Source: Prescottella subtropica | GTDB lineage: Bacteria; Actinomycetota; Actinomycetes; Mycobacteriales; Mycobacteriaceae | Direction of reading: 5' to 3' | Length of the DNA: 57,756 nucleotides | Assembly (NCBI RefSeq): GCF_005434945.1 | Contig: NZ_SKCH01000023.1 | Location: 1 to 57,756, forward strand | Part shown: positions 1,818-10,461 of the stretch, one piece after another | Layout: every line of letters begins with the position of its first letter | How positions within the stretch are numbered: the stretch's first letter is position 1 | The notes under the pieces: model-generated | Seen by the model: only the letters and a program-made list of their open reading frames with translations | Told to the model about the DNA's origin: nothing | Databases searched by the model: none | Position numbers and translations under genes: made by a program

Positions 1818-1848
1818 TTGCAATCTCCACTTGTAGTCATTTAGACTA
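1818..1848 (+). promoter_or_regulatory. promoter with palindromic operator for the 1854-5834 operon; leaderless start
   Basis: A TTGCAA -35 (1818-1823) and a TAGACT -10 (1842-1847) are separated by 18 bp. The -10 lies inside a perfect palindrome, TAGTC-ATTTA-GACTA (1834-1848). The ATG at 1854 follows 6 bp after the -10 and has no Shine-Dalgarno, so the mRNA is probably leaderless. The AT-rich stretch contrasts with its G+C-rich surroundings. The palindrome is placed to block RNA polymerase and is a natural target for the NrtR-like protein encoded at the end of the operon; that link is inference. Confidence 0.6.
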
Positions 1849-1853
1849 AAACC

Positions 1854-2894
1854 ATGACCACGACCACTGCAGGTTTCACGGCCGTCGAGTCGGCCACCGC
1901 GCCGGCCGACCTGTTCGGTCCTCCCGCAACGGATTCCGCGGCCCGTCGCGCCGCGCGCCGCGAGTTCCACCGGCTGTCGATGCTCGTGCACCCGGATCGG
2001 GTCGCTCCGGCCGATGCCGCCCGGGCGGCCGCGGCGTTCGCCACCGTGACGGAGCTGTACCGCAGCTGGTGCGGGGAACCGGTGGCCGCGGTGACGCTGA
2101 CCGGGACGGCGGGTACCTACACCCTCGGTGGTCGGCATGCGTGCGGATCGGTCGCCGACCTGTTCCGTGCCACGGACACCGACGGCACGCCGGTGACGGT
2201 CAAGATTCCGCGCGCGGTGGCGTCGAACGTCCTGCTCGACGCGGAACGGGCCGCGCTCACCGACATCGCGGCCTCGGCCGAGCGCGGACACGACTGGCTG
2301 CGCGCCTACTTCCCGACGCTCGTCGACCGGGTCACCCACGTCGATGCCGCGTCCGGGGCCCGGCGGTCGGTGAACGTCCTCGACGCGCTCGCCGACGGCT
2401 TCGTCACCCTCGCCGACGTCCGGGCCGCGCACCCCGACGGGATCGATCCGCGGGATTGGGCGTGGATGCACCGACGGCTGCTGCGGGCCGTGGCGGCCGC
2501 GCACCGGGCCGGCTGGGTGCACACCGCGATCACCGCCGACAACGTGCTGATCCATCCGGACCGGCACGGGGTGGTGCTCGCCGGATGGTCGTTCGCGACC
2601 CGGCCCGGCGACACTCCGGCCGCGCGGATCGGGTCGCAGCGACAGTTCTATCCGCCGGACACCGCGGCGACCCCGGCGTGGGACGTGTACATGACGCACG
2701 CGCTGATGCGGCACATGCTCGCAGGCCGTGCCCCGACGGCGATGCGCCGCTTCGTGTCCGGCTGCATGCAGGACGCGCCGCGCCGGCGCCCCGACGCCGC
2801 GGACCTGCTCACCGAGTTCGACGACCTCCTCGACCGACTGTACGGGCGACGACGCTTCCGCCCGTTCGCATTCCGCACCTCGAAAGGACAGTGA
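1854..2894 (+). CDS. J-domain/pseudokinase fusion protein
   Basis: A 346-residue protein. Residues about 20-75 resemble a J domain, with the HPD motif at 46-48 (VHPDRV). Residues about 85-340 resemble a protein kinase fold: VTVK with the ATP-binding Lys at 117, and an Asn at 230 in TADNVLI. The catalytic HRD is replaced by HTA (223-225) and DFG by AGW (243-245), so the catalytic and metal-binding aspartates are missing and it is probably a pseudokinase. It may recruit Hsp70 or bind the next proteins; that is inference. It is the first gene of a four-gene operon and its stop lies 5 bp before the VWA start. Confidence 0.8.
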   Translation: MTTTTAGFTAVESATAPADLFGPPATDSAARRAARREFHRLSMLVHPDRVAPADAARAAAAFATVTELYRSWCGEPVAAVTLTGTAGTYTLGGRHACGSVADLFRATDTDGTPVTVKIPRAVASNVLLDAERAALTDIAASAERGHDWLRAYFPTLVDRVTHVDAASGARRSVNVLDALADGFVTLADVRAAHPDGIDPRDWAWMHRRLLRAVAAAHRAGWVHTAITADNVLIHPDRHGVVLAGWSFATRPGDTPAARIGSQRQFYPPDTAATPAWDVYMTHALMRHMLAGRAPTAMRRFVSGCMQDAPRRRPDAADLLTEFDDLLDRLYGRRRFRPFAFRTSKGQ

Positions 2895-2899
2895 TCATC

Positions 2900-3886
2900 A
2901 TGGGTTACGGCAAGTGGGACGACGACACGTTCGCTGCGGCCAAGACGTTCCGGGCCGCCCGCGGACTCGACGACTTCGGCTACACCGCCACGATGCGGTC
3001 GCGGCCGTACACCGAGTGGAAGGTGGACCCGAGCCTCGACCCGTACGGGGTGACGGCGCGGGAGTCGCGGGACTCGGACGGCCACCCGGGGTCGCTGCCG
3101 ATCGCGGTGCTGTTCGACGTCACCGGCTCGATGGGCGTGGTGCCGCGGATCATGCAGGACAAGCTCGGCAAGCTGCACGGGCTGCTGCAACGCAAGGGGT
3201 ACGCGGACGATCCGCAGATCCTGTTCGGTGGCATCGGCGACGCCGACAGCGATCGGGTGCCGTTGCAGGTCGGGCAGTTCGAGTCGGACAACGCGATGGA
3301 CGACCAGTTGCGCACCATCTTCCTCGAGGGCGGTGGCGGCGGGCAGAAGTCGGAGAGCTACGAGCTGGCCGCCTATTTCATGGCCCGGCACATCACCACC
3401 GACGCGTGGGACCGGCGGGGCCGCAAGGGCTATCTGTTCGTCATCGGCGACGAGCTGAACAAGCCGCGGCTGTCGGCCCGGCAGGTGCGGGCCGTGATCG
3501 GTGACGATCTACGTCAGGACGTGAGCGTCGAATCGGTGTACCGGGAACTCGAGCAGCGCTGGAACGTGTACTTCGTGCTGCCGAACCAGTCGGCGTACTA
3601 CACCGACCCGCAGATCGCCGAGCACTGGACGCGGCTGCTGGGCGAGCGGTTCCTCAAGCTCGACGATCCGGCGGCGGTGTGCGAACTGATAGCCCTGACC
3701 GTCGGCATCGGCGAGGACCGCATCGACCTCGGGAAGGGGCTCGCCGACCTGCGCGACATCGGCTCGGTCGACGAGGCCGCCGCGGTCGGCACCGCACTCG
3801 CCACGCTCGGCGCCACCCGCGCCCCGGTGTCGACGGCGACACTGCCGCTCGGTGATCCGGGCACCGACGACGTCACGTTCCGATGA
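2900..3886 (+). CDS. VWA domain protein
   Basis: A 328-residue protein with a von Willebrand A domain from about residue 65 to 270. The metal-binding MIDAS motif is intact as DVTGS (73-77), and a glycine-rich EGGGGGQKSES stretch is present near 140. There is no signal peptide, so it probably acts in the cytoplasm as a metal-dependent scaffold. Start ATG 2900 is preceded by AAAGGA. Its TGA overlaps the ATG of the adenylosuccinate synthetase-like gene (ATGA at 3883-3886), indicating translational coupling. VWA proteins of this type also occur in large phages, as I recall, but nothing phage-like surrounds it here. Confidence 0.85.
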   Translation: MGYGKWDDDTFAAAKTFRAARGLDDFGYTATMRSRPYTEWKVDPSLDPYGVTARESRDSDGHPGSLPIAVLFDVTGSMGVVPRIMQDKLGKLHGLLQRKGYADDPQILFGGIGDADSDRVPLQVGQFESDNAMDDQLRTIFLEGGGGGQKSESYELAAYFMARHITTDAWDRRGRKGYLFVIGDELNKPRLSARQVRAVIGDDLRQDVSVESVYRELEQRWNVYFVLPNQSAYYTDPQIAEHWTRLLGERFLKLDDPAAVCELIALTVGIGEDRIDLGKGLADLRDIGSVDEAAAVGTALATLGATRAPVSTATLPLGDPGTDDVTFR

Positions 3887-5184
3887 CCGGCGACATCGGG
3901 GGCCGGGACATCGGGGGCCGGGACATCGTCGTCGTCGATCTCGGGTTCGGTGACGCCGGCAAGGGCGCGACCGTCGACTGGCTGTGCTCACCCGACGCGG
4001 GCCTGGACGTGGCCGCCGTCGTCCGCTTCAACGGCGGCGCGCAGGCCGCACACAACGTGGTCGCCGACGGCCGGCACCACACCTTCTCCCAGTTCGGGGC
4101 CGGTACGTTCTCGGGTGTGCCGACGGTGCTGTCGCGGCACGTGCTCGTCGAACCGATGGCCCTGGCCGCCGAGGCGCGGGAACTCGCGACGCTGGGGGTG
4201 CCGAACCCGTTGGGGCTGTTGCACCTCGACCCGGACGCACTGCTCACCACCCCGATCCATGTGGCCGCCAACCGGACCCGTGAGGACGCTCGCGGGGACG
4301 GTCGGCACGGGTCGTGCGGCAAGGGCATCGGGGAGACGGCGGCGTATGCGCTCGCGCACCCGGACGCGCCGACCGTCGGCGACTGCCGGACACCGGACCG
4401 GTTGCGCGCCAAGCTCACCCGGATGCGTCACGTGTACGGTCCGCTGCTGGACGGCGGCCGGCACCGCCTTCCCGACCTCGACGACCTGGTTGCGATGTAC
4501 ACCGAGTTCGCGGCCGCGGTCCGCATCGTCGACGGCGGCGGTCTCGCCGACCTCGCCGCGCGGGGACGGTTGGTGTTCGAGGGTGCGCAGGGCGTTCTGC
4601 TCGACGAGTGGCGCGGCTTCCACCCGCACACCACGTGGTCCACCGTCGAACCGTCGAACGCGCACGTGCTGCTCGACGAGATCGGCCGCGACGGCTACGT
4701 GCTCGGTGTGACCCGCACCTACACGACGCGGCACGGTGCCGGACCGCACCCCACCGAGGATCCGTCACTCGCCGCGGCCCTGCCGGAGATACACAACGGG
4801 ACCGGCCGCTACCAGGGTGCGTTCCGGGTGGGGCACCTCGACGAGGTGCTGTTGCGGTACGCCGTCGACGTGTGCGGTCGCGTCGACGGGCTCGCGGTCA
4901 CCCACCTCGACGCCGTCGCCCGCGCGGCGGCGGCCGGTGTCCCGCTCCGGACGGGACGGTTCTACCCCGGATTCGGGGACCGGATCGCGCCCGGGCCGTG
5001 GCGCGACCTCGACCACCAGCAGCGGCTCACCGACGCCCTCGACGCGGTCTCCGTCGACTACGCGCCGCTCGACCCGGCCGGGGTGCTCGACCGGATCGCG
5101 GACGTCACCGGCGTCCCCGTCGTGCTCACCGCGCACGGACCGGACCGGGCCGACCGCCGGGTCGCCGCACCCGTTGCCGCATGA
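3883..5184 (+). CDS. divergent adenylosuccinate synthetase homologue
   Basis: A 433-residue PurA-fold protein. Family landmarks kept: GDAGKG (23-28) for GDEGKG, NGGAQAAH for NGGxNAGH with its His (57), FEGAQG (232-237), and YTTRHGAGPHPTE. Landmarks changed: E to A in the P-loop, the arginine-rich loop (usually RRRCGW) reads RYQGAFRVGH, and the GTP-base motif TKLD reads THLD. In PurA those regions bind aspartate/IMP and guanine, so the substrates probably differ. A 15-bp direct repeat at the start gives DIGGRDIGGRDI. Housekeeping purA should lie elsewhere. It overlaps both neighbours by four bases. A GTP/IMP ligase role is not demonstrated. Confidence 0.8.
   Translation: MTGDIGGRDIGGRDIVVVDLGFGDAGKGATVDWLCSPDAGLDVAAVVRFNGGAQAAHNVVADGRHHTFSQFGAGTFSGVPTVLSRHVLVEPMALAAEARELATLGVPNPLGLLHLDPDALLTTPIHVAANRTREDARGDGRHGSCGKGIGETAAYALAHPDAPTVGDCRTPDRLRAKLTRMRHVYGPLLDGGRHRLPDLDDLVAMYTEFAAAVRIVDGGGLADLAARGRLVFEGAQGVLLDEWRGFHPHTTWSTVEPSNAHVLLDEIGRDGYVLGVTRTYTTRHGAGPHPTEDPSLAAALPEIHNGTGRYQGAFRVGHLDEVLLRYAVDVCGRVDGLAVTHLDAVARAAAAGVPLRTGRFYPGFGDRIAPGPWRDLDHQQRLTDALDAVSVDYAPLDPAGVLDRIADVTGVPVVLTAHGPDRADRRVAAPVAA
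3892..3928 (+). repeat. 15-bp tandem repeat, about 2.5 units, inside the PurA-like gene
   Basis: The unit gacatcgggggccgg occurs at 3892-3906 and 3907-3921, with a partial third unit to 3928. It encodes the repeated DIGGR at the N terminus of the PurA-like protein, before the first beta strand (DIVVVDLGFG). Unit length is a multiple of three, so copy-number change would keep the frame. Confidence 0.85.
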
Positions 5185-5834
5185 TCGACGGCATGGATCA
5201 GTCCGCCGTCTCCGTTGACGTGCTCGCCCTCCGGTTCGGTGACCCCGAGCCGGGCCGGTTGCGGTACGCGGTCGCCCCACGCAGCTGGGAGCCGTACACC
5301 GGGCAACTCGCACTGCCCGGTGTGCTGCTCGGGGCGGGGGAGCGGCTGCGGGACGCCGCCCGCCGCGCCGTCACCACGAAACTCGGTGTCCCCGACGGAT
5401 CCGTCGCCGCCACCGGTCAGCTCGCGGTGTTCGACGAGCCGCACCGCGACCCGCGCGGCCCGACCCTGTCGGTGACGATGTGGGCCGTCGTCACCGACGG
5501 TGGCGCTCCGGACACGCGTTGGCTGGGCTTCGGCGAGCCCGCCGAGCCCGCCGATCTCGCATTCGACCACGACCGGATCGTCGCCGACGGCCGGGCGATC
5601 GCCGGCGATCGGCTCCTGTGGCACGACCGGGTGTTCACGCGCGCCTTGCTCGGCCCCGAGTTCCCGGCCACCTACGCCGTCGAGGTCACCACCGCGCTCA
5701 CCGGCGCCCGGCCCGACGCCGGCAACCTCAACCGCACCCTGAAGAACCTGCCCGGCCTCGAACGTACCGACGAACGGGTGCGAGTCCAGGCGACGGGCCG
5801 GCCGGCGGTCGTGTGGCGGTGGACCGAGCGGTGA
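5181..5834 (+). CDS. NrtR-like Nudix-winged-helix regulator
   Basis: A 217-residue protein. Residues about 1-145 form a Nudix domain whose catalytic box is degenerate: the expected REUxEExGU reads RRAVTTKLG, so hydrolysis is unlikely. Residues about 150-217 fit the winged-helix domain of NrtR-type regulators (FTRALLGPEFPATYAVEV to GRPAVVWRWTE). The same two-part architecture is seen in NrtR at 8622-9323. This suggests a nucleotide-sensing repressor that controls its own operon through the palindrome at 1834-1848. ATG 5181 overlaps the previous stop (ATGA). Convergent with the TetR gene, only 6 bp away. Confidence 0.75.
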   Translation: MIDGMDQSAVSVDVLALRFGDPEPGRLRYAVAPRSWEPYTGQLALPGVLLGAGERLRDAARRAVTTKLGVPDGSVAATGQLAVFDEPHRDPRGPTLSVTMWAVVTDGGAPDTRWLGFGEPAEPADLAFDHDRIVADGRAIAGDRLLWHDRVFTRALLGPEFPATYAVEVTTALTGARPDAGNLNRTLKNLPGLERTDERVRVQATGRPAVVWRWTER

Positions 5835-8621: not shown

Positions 8622-9323
8622 TCACCCCGGCGGGCGCAGTGCCGCGAATTCGTCGGTGACGCGTAGGCGGGCGTCGGTGAAGCGGTAGAGGGCGGCGGGG
8701 CGGCCGCCGGCGCGACCGGAGCGGGCGGTGTTGCCGGTGGCGGTGATGACGCGGCGGCGGGTGAGGACGCGTTGCAGATTGGTGGTGTCCACCTGGTATC
8801 CGAGTGCGGCGCAATAGATGTCGCGCAGGGTGGAGAGGGTGAATTCGTCGGGGGCGAGGGCGAACGCGATGTTGGTGTACGACAGTTTCGCGGCGAGACG
8901 GGTGCGGGCGTGGTCGACGACGGTGCCGTGGTCGAACGACATCGGTGGCAGCGCGGACACGGGATGCCATGCGGTGTCGGGGGGGAGCCGGGGATCGGCG
9001 GGCAGTGGGACGAGGCCCAGGTAGGTGGAGGCGATACGCCGGTCGCCGGGAACCCGGTGTGGGTCGCTGAACACCGACAACTGTTCGAGGTGGGCGACGT
9101 CGCGGACGTCGACCTTCTCGGCGAGCTGACGTCGGGCGGAGGTGGCGAGGTCCTCGTCGTCGCCGAGGGTGCCGCCGGGCAGGGACCACGTGCCGGACTG
9201 GGGGTCGAGGGCGCGCTGCCACAGCAGCACCATGAGCTCGTCACCTGCGGCGACACCGTCCGGTCCGGGGCGAACCTGGAACACCGCGGTGAGGACTTCG
9301 TGGACGGTGCTACCATGTGGCAT
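8622..9323 (-). CDS. nrtR: NrtR, Nudix-winged-helix repressor of NAD synthesis genes
   Basis: A 233-residue protein. The N-terminal Nudix domain (residues about 8-150) has a degenerate box (ARRQLAEKV instead of REUxEExGU) and so probably only binds ligand. The C-terminal winged helix ends in [16 protein letters not shown]. NrtR represses NAD genes and responds to ADP-ribose in other bacteria; in Mycobacterium smegmatis it lies beside nadABC as here. ATG 9323 abuts the palindromic site at 9324-9346, so it should repress itself and nadA. A longer in-frame extension upstream exists but would read through the operator. Confidence 0.88.
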
Positions 9324-9346
9324 GTTTTCGATCCTAAGTCGAAAAC
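9324..9346. promoter_or_regulatory. NrtR operator
   Basis: Perfect inverted repeat GTTTTCGA-N7-TCGAAAAC immediately upstream of the nrtR start codon and 80 bp upstream of nadA. It matches the kind of site expected for mycobacterial NrtR from its position and symmetry. Because it touches the nrtR ATG, any nrtR transcript starting here would have little or no leader. Confidence 0.75.
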
Positions 9347-9426
9347 CTCGATTTCGGAAATTCGGGCCGGCCCGCCCGAGTTGGAGTGACGGGGTTGCCG
9401 AGCGGTCCCGTGAAGAAGGAGTGGCC

Positions 9427-10461
9427 ATGACGTCAACGGTGTGGGCGGGTGCTGCCGGACAGATCCAGGACGGTCCCGGTGGATACACCGGCATCGAGGC
9501 CGGGCCCGAGTGGGCGGCCGAGGTGCGTCGTCTGGCGAAGGAACGGAACGCCACGATCCTGGCGCACAACTATCAGCTGCCCGAGATCCAGGACGTCGCC
9601 GACCATGTCGGTGACTCGCTGGCGCTCTCGCGGATCGCTGCGGAGGCCGAAGAGGGCACCATCGTGTTCTGCGGTGTGCACTTCATGGCCGAGACCGCGA
9701 AGATCCTCAGCCCGGAGAAGACGGTGCTGATCCCGGACGAGCGGGCCGGCTGCTCGCTCGCCGACTCGATTACCGCCGACCAGTTGCGGGAGTGGAAGGC
9801 CGAGCGCCCCGACGCGCTGGTGGTGTCGTACGTCAACACCACCGCCGAGGTGAAGGGTCTGACGGACATCTGCTGCACGTCGTCGAACGCGGTCGACGTC
9901 GTCGCCTCGATCGACGCCGACCGGGAGGTGCTGTTCCTGCCGGACCAGTTCCTCGGTGCCCACGTCAAGCGCGTCACCGGACGGACGAACATGCACATCT
10001 GGGCCGGCGAATGCCACGTCCACGCGGGCATCAACGGCGACGAGCTCACCGCGAAGGCGAAGAGCCACCCGGACGCCGAACTGTTCGTGCACCCCGAATG
10101 TGGTTGCGCCACCTCGGCGCTCTACCTCGCCGGCGAGGGTTTCGTGCCGGAGGACAAGGTCAAGATCCTCTCGACGGGCGGCATGCTCGACGCGGCCCGG
10201 GAGACCGGTGCCACGCAGGTGCTCGTCGCCACCGAGGTCGGCATGCTGCACCAGCTGCGCAAGGCGGCGCCGGGCGTCGACTTCCAGGCAGTCAACGATC
10301 GCGCGTCGTGCCCGTACATGAAGATGATCACCCCGGCCGCGCTGCTGCGCTGCCTCGCCGAGGGCAAGGACGAGGTCCACGTCGCCGCCGACGTCGCGGA
10401 GCGGGCCCGCAAGTCGGTGCAGCGCATGATCGAGATCGGCAACCCGGGCGGCGGCGAGTAA
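9427..10461 (+). CDS. nadA: quinolinate synthase
   Basis: A 344-residue enzyme that condenses iminoaspartate with dihydroxyacetone phosphate to make quinolinate, using a [4Fe-4S] cluster. Landmarks are [51 protein letters not shown] and [11 protein letters not shown], which supply the cluster cysteines. ATG 9427 follows AAGGAG. First gene of nadABC; its stop shares an adenine with the nadB ATG (TAATG). Confidence 0.97.

Follow-up and report, generated by a model that had tools for sequence, protein, structure and literature searches.

A phage and bacterial gene cassette built around a PurA-like enzyme and a VWA-like protein with a Met-Gly start, and its possible role in N-terminal purine modification

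The stretch of DNA analyzed here, referred to as the window, is a contig of 57,756 nucleotides from Prescottella subtropica (NZ_SKCH01000023.1). Near its start, four genes on the plus strand form a compact operon. Gene 1 (1854..2894) encodes a protein of 346 amino acids to which J-motif and kinase-profile evidence assigns a J domain and a pseudokinase region. Gene 2 (2900..3886) encodes a VWA-like protein of 328 amino acids with a Met-Gly start, which carries a DxTGS motif and matches phrog_2971 at 5.2e-73. Gene 3 (3883..5184) encodes a PurA-like ligase of 433 amino acids that matches PF00709 at 3.8e-57 and lacks the aspartate site of PurA. Gene 4 (5181..5834) encodes a probable regulator of 217 amino acids, Nudix/NrtR-like, with a degenerate Nudix box and weak matches to NUDIX and NrtR_WHD. 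The spacer between genes 1 and 2 is 5 bp, and the 2/3 and 3/4 junctions are 4-bp overlaps; the open reading frame coordinates bear out the tandem layout described in the original prediction, a note made from the letters of the window alone. An operator-like inverted repeat, TAGTC-N5-GACTA, lies at 1834..1848 on the plus strand, is conserved across loci, and overlaps a -10-like TAGACT (1842-1847). On reading the sequence, this hexamer stops 6 bases 5' of the ATG, a position that fits the leaderless start suggested earlier for gene 1. The "perfect 15-bp palindrome" reported over the -10 holds as an inverted repeat, but its arms are only 5 bp and its 5-bp spacer is itself not palindromic.

All four proteins were searched against the Pfam, NCBIfam, PADLOC and PHROGs libraries. 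The products of genes 1, 2 and 3 match the phage families phrog_3043, phrog_2971 and phrog_1211, and the gene set is named in none of the four libraries. Searches of an open-access literature library, which covers neither subscription papers nor preprints, turned up no recognizable description of it. Each single domain type is already known; what appears to be new is the module and the enzyme subfamily.

The bacterial distribution was scanned using a ten-sequence VWA alignment as query. The VWA family is encoded in at least 522 bacterial stretches and in 470 viral stretches (the larger of two scans). Comparisons below use the 80 best-scoring of those bacterial stretches, all from Actinomycetota according to their record titles, and the 80 best-scoring of 265 confirmed viral stretches; both sets lean to close relatives, and gene starts were chosen by script as those nearest the profile start. 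Among the bacterial loci, found through their VWA gene, VWA and PurA-like genes occur together in 79, a Nudix relative in 77, and a J/pseudokinase gene in 60. All four are present in 58, which answers the doubt attached to the original prediction as to whether the four genes are conserved together elsewhere; the operon is genuine and conserved. The PurA-like gene missing from locus L022 lies past the end of its contig. In 29 of 79 bacterial loci the VWA and PurA-like reading frames share 1 or 4 bp. The viral contigs, also found through VWA, have the same pair in 78 of 80, a J/pseudokinase gene in 53 and a Nudix relative in just 3, and their neighborhoods otherwise share little around the pair.

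The reverse search, which used a nucleotide pattern encoding the PurA-like motif YxTRHGxGP, returned 118 new loci. The PurA-like protein is encoded in 105 of them, and 78 of these 105 have a VWA gene on the same strand; of the 27 without one, 23 have less than 2.5 kb of upstream sequence. By tblastn, the VWA-like protein matches 208 of 50,697 phage records (189 from Mycobacterium, 10 from Rhizobium, 6 from Vibrio, 3 others), a phage present in both RefSeq and GenBank being counted twice. The PurA-like protein matches 219 phage records, with numbers for Mycobacterium, Rhizobium and Vibrio the same as those for VWA. The one Mycobacterium phage record whose annotated neighborhood was inspected, Bigswole, has kinase, VWA and PurA-like genes together. 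Matches to the VWA-like protein also occur in 21 of 72,556 plasmids, 11 of them from Rhodococcus, R. jostii RHA1 included; of seven plasmids inspected, one lacks the PurA-like gene, while plasmids of Rhodococcus opacus and Tsukamurella carry all four genes. Agrobacterium vitis has the module with a divergent Nudix gene, and Acetobacter has kinase-like, VWA and PurA-like genes together. The distribution is patchy. Within the class 28 of 296 genomes gave a match, within the genus 2 of 14, and among relatives 8 of 61, one of these eight being a weak partial match at 4e-4. Pairwise distances for VWA and PurA-like proteins correlate at 0.91 over 284 unique pairs and at 0.82 for divergent pairs (permuted maximum 0.05), so the two genes move as a unit. 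The module is a phage and bacterial cassette whose core is the VWA/PurA-like pair. The original prediction stands in its account of a self-contained operon around a purine-type ligase; it did not foresee the phage carriage, the two-gene core or the Met-Gly start.

The gene 3 product matches Adenylsucc_synt (PF00709) at 194.4 bits (cut-off 27) and phrog_1211, labeled "2-aminooxy adenylosuccinate synthetase", at 1.8e-72. PurA phosphorylates the 6-oxygen of inosine monophosphate (IMP) with GTP and couples the alpha-amine of aspartate. One reading, that gene 3 encodes either a second adenylosuccinate synthetase of the ordinary kind or a PurZ, draws on the 194-bit Pfam match and on phage homologs that share the RefSeq product name of phiVC8 PurZ. 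It is nevertheless very improbable, as the same 4.4-Mb genome encodes a separate canonical PurA (591 bits), and gene 3 falls far under both the PurA equivalog cut-offs (NF002223, 151 vs 402; TIGR00184, 110.7 vs 395.55) and the cut-off of the NCBIfam PurZ model (22.9 bits vs 300). Residues at the active site and a phylogenetic tree, considered below, weigh further against it.

An alignment was built from 165 module proteins, E. coli PurA, 30 other canonical PurA and phiVC8 PurZ. Module proteins share with PurA its fold family and P-loop; D13, K16, G17, H41, Q224 and R272 are invariant in all 165, D13, K16 and H41 being catalytic, and D333, which we take to be a GTP-site residue, is kept in 164. 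The column of R303 is a gap in 165 of 165, unlike canonical PurA, where it is Arg in 30 of 30. We take Thr300, Thr301 and Arg305, along with Arg303, to be the aspartate-binding residues of PurA. In the module proteins, T300 becomes Tyr, Trp or Phe in 158, T301 becomes Gln in 162, and R305 becomes Phe, Leu, Trp, Ile or Met in 162; in addition, V273 becomes His in all 165 and N38 becomes Gln in 162. T129 and R143 presumably hold the 5'-phosphate of IMP in PurA; the former has been replaced by Cys in 128 and by Val in 28, with Thr left in 9, and neither R143 nor K140 is conserved. Judged by these residues, the aspartate site of the PurA-like enzyme is rebuilt and its 5'-phosphate site altered. 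The part of PMC8342488 that deals with R303 has it touching both the IMP ribose O2' and free aspartate. Because R303 is lost in every module protein, ordinary adenylosuccinate synthetase activity of gene 3 is unlikely. GTP-dependent phosphorylation of a hypoxanthine at its 6-oxygen is plausible.

Position 13 separates the module enzyme from PurZ of Z-DNA phages, likewise a phage-borne PurA paralog. The sections of PMC12884076 (2026) concerned with this residue report 99% conservation of Asp13 across PurA and a Ser at that position in 147 phage PurZ, take Ser or Gly replacing Asp13 as the PurZ criterion, and sort PurZ from 481 phage PF00709 proteins; the gene set treated here is not described in those sections. 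Because module enzymes keep Asp13 where PurZ has Ser, hypoxanthine would be a likelier substrate than guanine. In a tree made by a quick search from 89 of the 197 rows, in which many forks are weak, the module proteins form one clade (SH-aLRT, a branch-support test, 98), apart from E. coli PurA and 12 other canonical PurA (96). PurZ of phiVC8 also falls outside the module clade, on a branch too long for firm placement. Alphaproteobacterial copies nest in a phage group and actinobacterial copies in a second, mixed set, which makes transfer between phages and bacteria likely. Ordinary PurA and PurZ were both rejected as identities for gene 3 on residues, model scores and tree.

RefSeq names the PurA-like proteins of a Mycobacterium phage (L003 5968-7296), other Mycobacterium phages and a further locus (L213 1082-2113) "2-aminooxy adenylosuccinate synthetase", the name also given to phiVC8 PurZ. 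The name is misleading, since Asp13 is retained, and a PurZ-type label on module enzymes should not count as evidence of Z-DNA. The Mycobacterium phage records in GenBank label the enzyme either this way or as adenylosuccinate synthetase, and the VWA protein as hypothetical.

The protein encoded beside this enzyme, the gene 2 product, matches no VWA model. A Pfam scan of 42 relatives gave DUF444 (2e-4) in one and VWA_CoxE (0.006) in one, and a sequence-profile search of PDB gave no meaningful match. The putative assignment of gene 2 to VWA rests on its DxTGS and GDE motifs and on the weak Pfam matches of relatives. DxTGS is a metal ion-dependent adhesion site (MIDAS)-type motif, a Thr variant of DxSxS, with D73 and G76 present in 170 of 170 VWA-like proteins and T75 and S77 in 169. 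Residues R54, E55, D114, Q126, E128, G146, E152, D184 and E185 are likewise found in all 170; altogether, 24 positions are conserved in 167 or more.

An unexpected regularity in this family stands at its very start. In 164 of 170 proteins Gly comes immediately after the called start, and in 167 it aligns to position 2, a count that includes L130; where the start has no alternative, Gly2 is found in 101 of 104. A second, partly overlapping set, in which some viral contigs repeat from the first and rows with a profile match starting after position 3 are omitted, gives Gly2 in 141 of 142, and in 116 of 116 where the start has no alternative. The background is 37 of 629 neighboring open reading frames in viruses and 51 of 706 in bacteria, and the products of genes 1, 3 and 4 show no fixed second residue. 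Of the 170 VWA-like proteins, 159 have Gly or Ser at position 4 and 167 an aromatic residue at position 6, with positions 3, 5, 8 and 9 variable; by its sequence pattern, the VWA N-terminus is a short motif. The exceptions in the first set are six (L041, L122, L095, L171, L130 and L165). L041 and L122, together with L240, the sole exception in the second set, show Ile-Gly at the apparent start, encoded with AUU, AUA and AUC respectively; these fit rare start codons that would keep the Met-Gly start. L095 has an in-frame stop with a Met-Gly start 5' of the stop, and L171 is truncated. Initiator Met is removed before Gly, and the near-invariant Met-Gly start points to the protein itself as the amine acceptor.

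We tentatively favor a reading in which the amine of the VWA N-terminal glycine is coupled by the PurA-like enzyme to C6 of a hypoxanthine nucleotide. The VWA N-terminus would enter the PurA-like active site and be joined at C6, because the aspartate site is rebuilt and the partner offers a conserved glycine alpha-amine. In the first step, family knowledge and the conserved residues suggest, the enzyme would phosphorylate the 6-oxygen of the hypoxanthine nucleotide with GTP, as PurA does. In the second, the free alpha-amine exposed on the glycine by Met removal would replace free aspartate as acceptor, yielding a VWA protein whose first residue carries an adenine-type nucleotide attached via N6. 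In the third, the purine-tagged VWA protein would be the working form, holding a metal at its MIDAS-like site and acting on some target; the J/pseudokinase partner, where present, would bring Hsp70 to it. In bacteria, the Nudix protein would repress the operon at the repeat until released by a nucleotide ligand, perhaps one resembling ADP-ribose or the module's own. That a PurA-derived enzyme so attaches a purine nucleotide covalently, via N6, to the glycine at the N-terminus of its dedicated VWA partner, as a new kind of modification that could be called N-terminal purinylation, we advance with a little more caution still. If true, purine-linked protein modification would mean that a protein-bound adenine nucleotide is used in phage-host biology. 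Because the pair is present in a laboratory phage of Mycobacterium smegmatis, mass spectrometry could address the question directly.

Several observations weigh against this reading. Among the pattern loci, L231, L245, L255 and L256 have the PurA-like gene without VWA, and VWA occurs without the PurA-like gene at L018, at L146 (where 3.3 kb downstream is covered) and at L397 (about 5 kb on each side). L130 has six residues separating Met and Gly, and L165 does not clearly fit. Arg of the R306 column is kept in 164 of 165 module enzymes, and an alignment shift could let it replace one of those lost; the nucleotide may not be IMP, because T129 and R143 are changed. Coevolution analysis of VWA and PurA-like proteins (284 pairs, effective number 191) was noisy and indicated no interface; invariant residues are invisible to such an analysis. 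Finally, the conserved N-terminal glycine could play a non-covalent role. It might serve as a plug or a MIDAS ligand, inserting into the PurA-like active site or into another VWA subunit and so regulating it. The linkage and Gly2 data fit this equally well, and aromatic residues and Gln do occupy the old aspartate loop; by itself, however, it gives the conserved phosphorylation machinery no role, and we consider it unlikely.

The main rival, itself doubtful, is the reading of the original prediction: the product would be a small molecule, a modified purine nucleotide that the enzyme builds from a hypoxanthine nucleotide with some amine in place of aspartate, and the VWA and J/pseudokinase proteins would act as scaffold and chaperone. 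A remodeled amine site beside retained catalytic residues would suit it, as would a regulator of nucleotide-sensing type, and genes for PRTase_3 and HAD proteins near the pair in a Rhizobium phage and for NADAR in a Vibrio phage. Yet such relatives occur in just one (PRTase_3 and HAD) and two (NADAR) of the loci compared, and both the Met-Gly start and the tight pairing of VWA and enzyme in phages go unexplained. Whether the product is a purine-linked protein or a new purine nucleotide, the chemistry would be new for an enzyme family of central metabolism.

A locus without the PurA-like gene was seen on the Rhodovulum plasmid (L018 5101-8029), which has Nudix, J/pseudokinase-like and VWA genes and no PurA-like gene within 14.7 kb. 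It is possibly a broken or reduced copy of the module.

Gene 4 scores 20.9 bits to NUDIX (cut-off 21.1) and 16.1 to NrtR_WHD (cut-off 27). The Nudix relative in bacterial loci may be upstream, downstream or divergent, and in a few lies about 0.4-2 kb away. Of 86 relatives, 7 have a strict Nudix box, 10 a partial one and 69 none; most are probably sensors, because the box is mostly degenerate. The repeat at 1834-1848, TAGTC-ATTTA-GACTA, is the sole exact match in the window, where the four matches at up to two mismatches are not above chance (mean 7.2). In the 250 bases preceding the first module gene of 88 bacterial loci, the repeat was found exact in 18, with one mismatch in 16, with two in 29 and not at all in 25, against expectations from mononucleotide shuffling of 0.05, 0.4 and 5.55 for the first three classes; the 88 loci are mutually related, and at least one, L009, duplicates another, L026.

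In 43 pseudokinase-first operons the repeat stands about 20 bases 5' of the start codon. Its arms are complementary at five pairs in 30 of these operons, at four in 11 and at three in 2; they read TAGTC/GACTA in 14, GAGTC/GACTC in 13 and TACTC/GAGTA in 3, the others being variants. The repeat thus shows palindromic covariation across operons. The penultimate spacer base is T in 41 of these operons and the last one A in all 43, which completes TAGACT. At the same position, none of the 40 operons taken to begin otherwise (20 Nudix-first and 20 VWA-first) has five complementary pairs; several VWA-first loci have the repeat 35-70 bases upstream, and several Nudix-first loci have a TTCTC/GAGAA-type repeat. 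The natural reading is that the Nudix protein would autoregulate the operon, and the self-regulation proposed for the module at the outset is probable. The module protein may share with NrtR regulators of NAD genes the Nudix and winged-helix arrangement and the palindromic site; it differs from them in its weak model scores and in the usual absence of a Nudix box. The window also encodes a second NrtR-type regulator (8622-9569, minus strand), with a better score (PF21906, 47.6 bits), divergent to an apparent nadA. The module repeat is not found near that NrtR/nadA start (9550-9680) at up to three mismatches.

For gene 1, Pfam gave DnaJ at E 0.0066 and kinase at 0.013, both below cut-offs, while a five-sequence profile run against PDB found DnaJ at 1.4e-5 and kinases at 5.9e-9, and PHROGs gave the kinase family phrog_3043 at 1.9e-28. 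The HPD motif is well kept: H, P and D are present in 60, 59 and 59 of 60 bacterial relatives and in 47, 45 and 47 of 53 viral ones. All 60 bacterial relatives and 51 of the 53 viral ones lack the catalytic Asp of HRD, and the Asp of DFG is retained in 20 and 22, respectively. A Variovorax plasmid (L017 5684-6886) encodes a pseudokinase-like protein that has an N-terminal CxxC/CxxC zinc-ribbon-like stretch and no J domain. Three phages without a J/pseudokinase gene encode related Met-rich proteins 0.1-0.5 kb upstream of VWA (L016 4777-5568, L015 5222-5935 and L177 6717-7505); beyond these, no common replacement was seen among the viral loci that lack J/pseudokinase.

Defense had been among the roles first suggested. 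The module might be a defense or counter-defense system of ADP-ribose/NAD metabolism, comparable to the Nudix-TF/vWA/ARG systems predicted to act against viral ADP-ribosylation, which, in the portions of PMC9503650 that describe them, also combine a Nudix-sensor repressor with a vWA partner. Carriage on phages and megaplasmids and the patchy distribution in class and genus would agree with this. Pfam, however, finds no ADP-ribosylglycohydrolase (ARG) or phosphatase among the four genes, which have a PurA-like ligase and a J-pseudokinase instead, and the words "adenylosuccinate" and "PurA" do not occur in the main text of that paper. At E 1e-10, the 125 flanking proteins from 33 bacterial loci gave seven matches to six PADLOC families. 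Two of these were subtilases, one was a TAP-like protein and one an oxidoreductase; the defense proteins mad3, mad8 and AriA were matched once each, and these three single matches would favor a defense role. With no control set for comparison, the verdict on a defense-island neighborhood is limited to no clear signal. As the idea names a role rather than a chemistry, it is also compatible with the other readings; taken as a rival to them, we judge it improbable.

Clustering of 706 flanking open reading frames, filtered by codon-position GC with the loss of some genes, found no gene family beside the operon in more than five genera. Two families occur in four or more; they presumably represent an SDR protein and an MFS transporter. 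Pfam results for the flanks show a mixed background of 144 families, the first 25 of which were viewed. Parts of PMC10892097 record that the same Vi01-like phages encode an adenylosuccinate synthase and a VWA-domain protein.

No constant phage neighbor was found among unrelated viral contigs. Vibrio phage Va1 has a NADAR gene (L015 4203-4859; PF08719, 9.9e-49) 1.1 kb upstream of VWA. In Rhizobium phage RHph_Y65, genes for HAD and PRTase_3 proteins (L016 909-2424) lie 3.6-5.1 kb upstream of VWA; we take these gene types to be known from Ter-linked nucleoside pathways. A link to NAD or ADP-ribose through such neighbors was considered and rejected as too thin, NADAR being found in Va1 and as a weak match at L109, and HAD/PRTase_3 in the one Rhizobium phage. 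Nine related viral contigs (L139 3910-4665 and eight more) encode a conserved protein 3' of the PurA-like gene; it may resemble an ATP-grasp protein.

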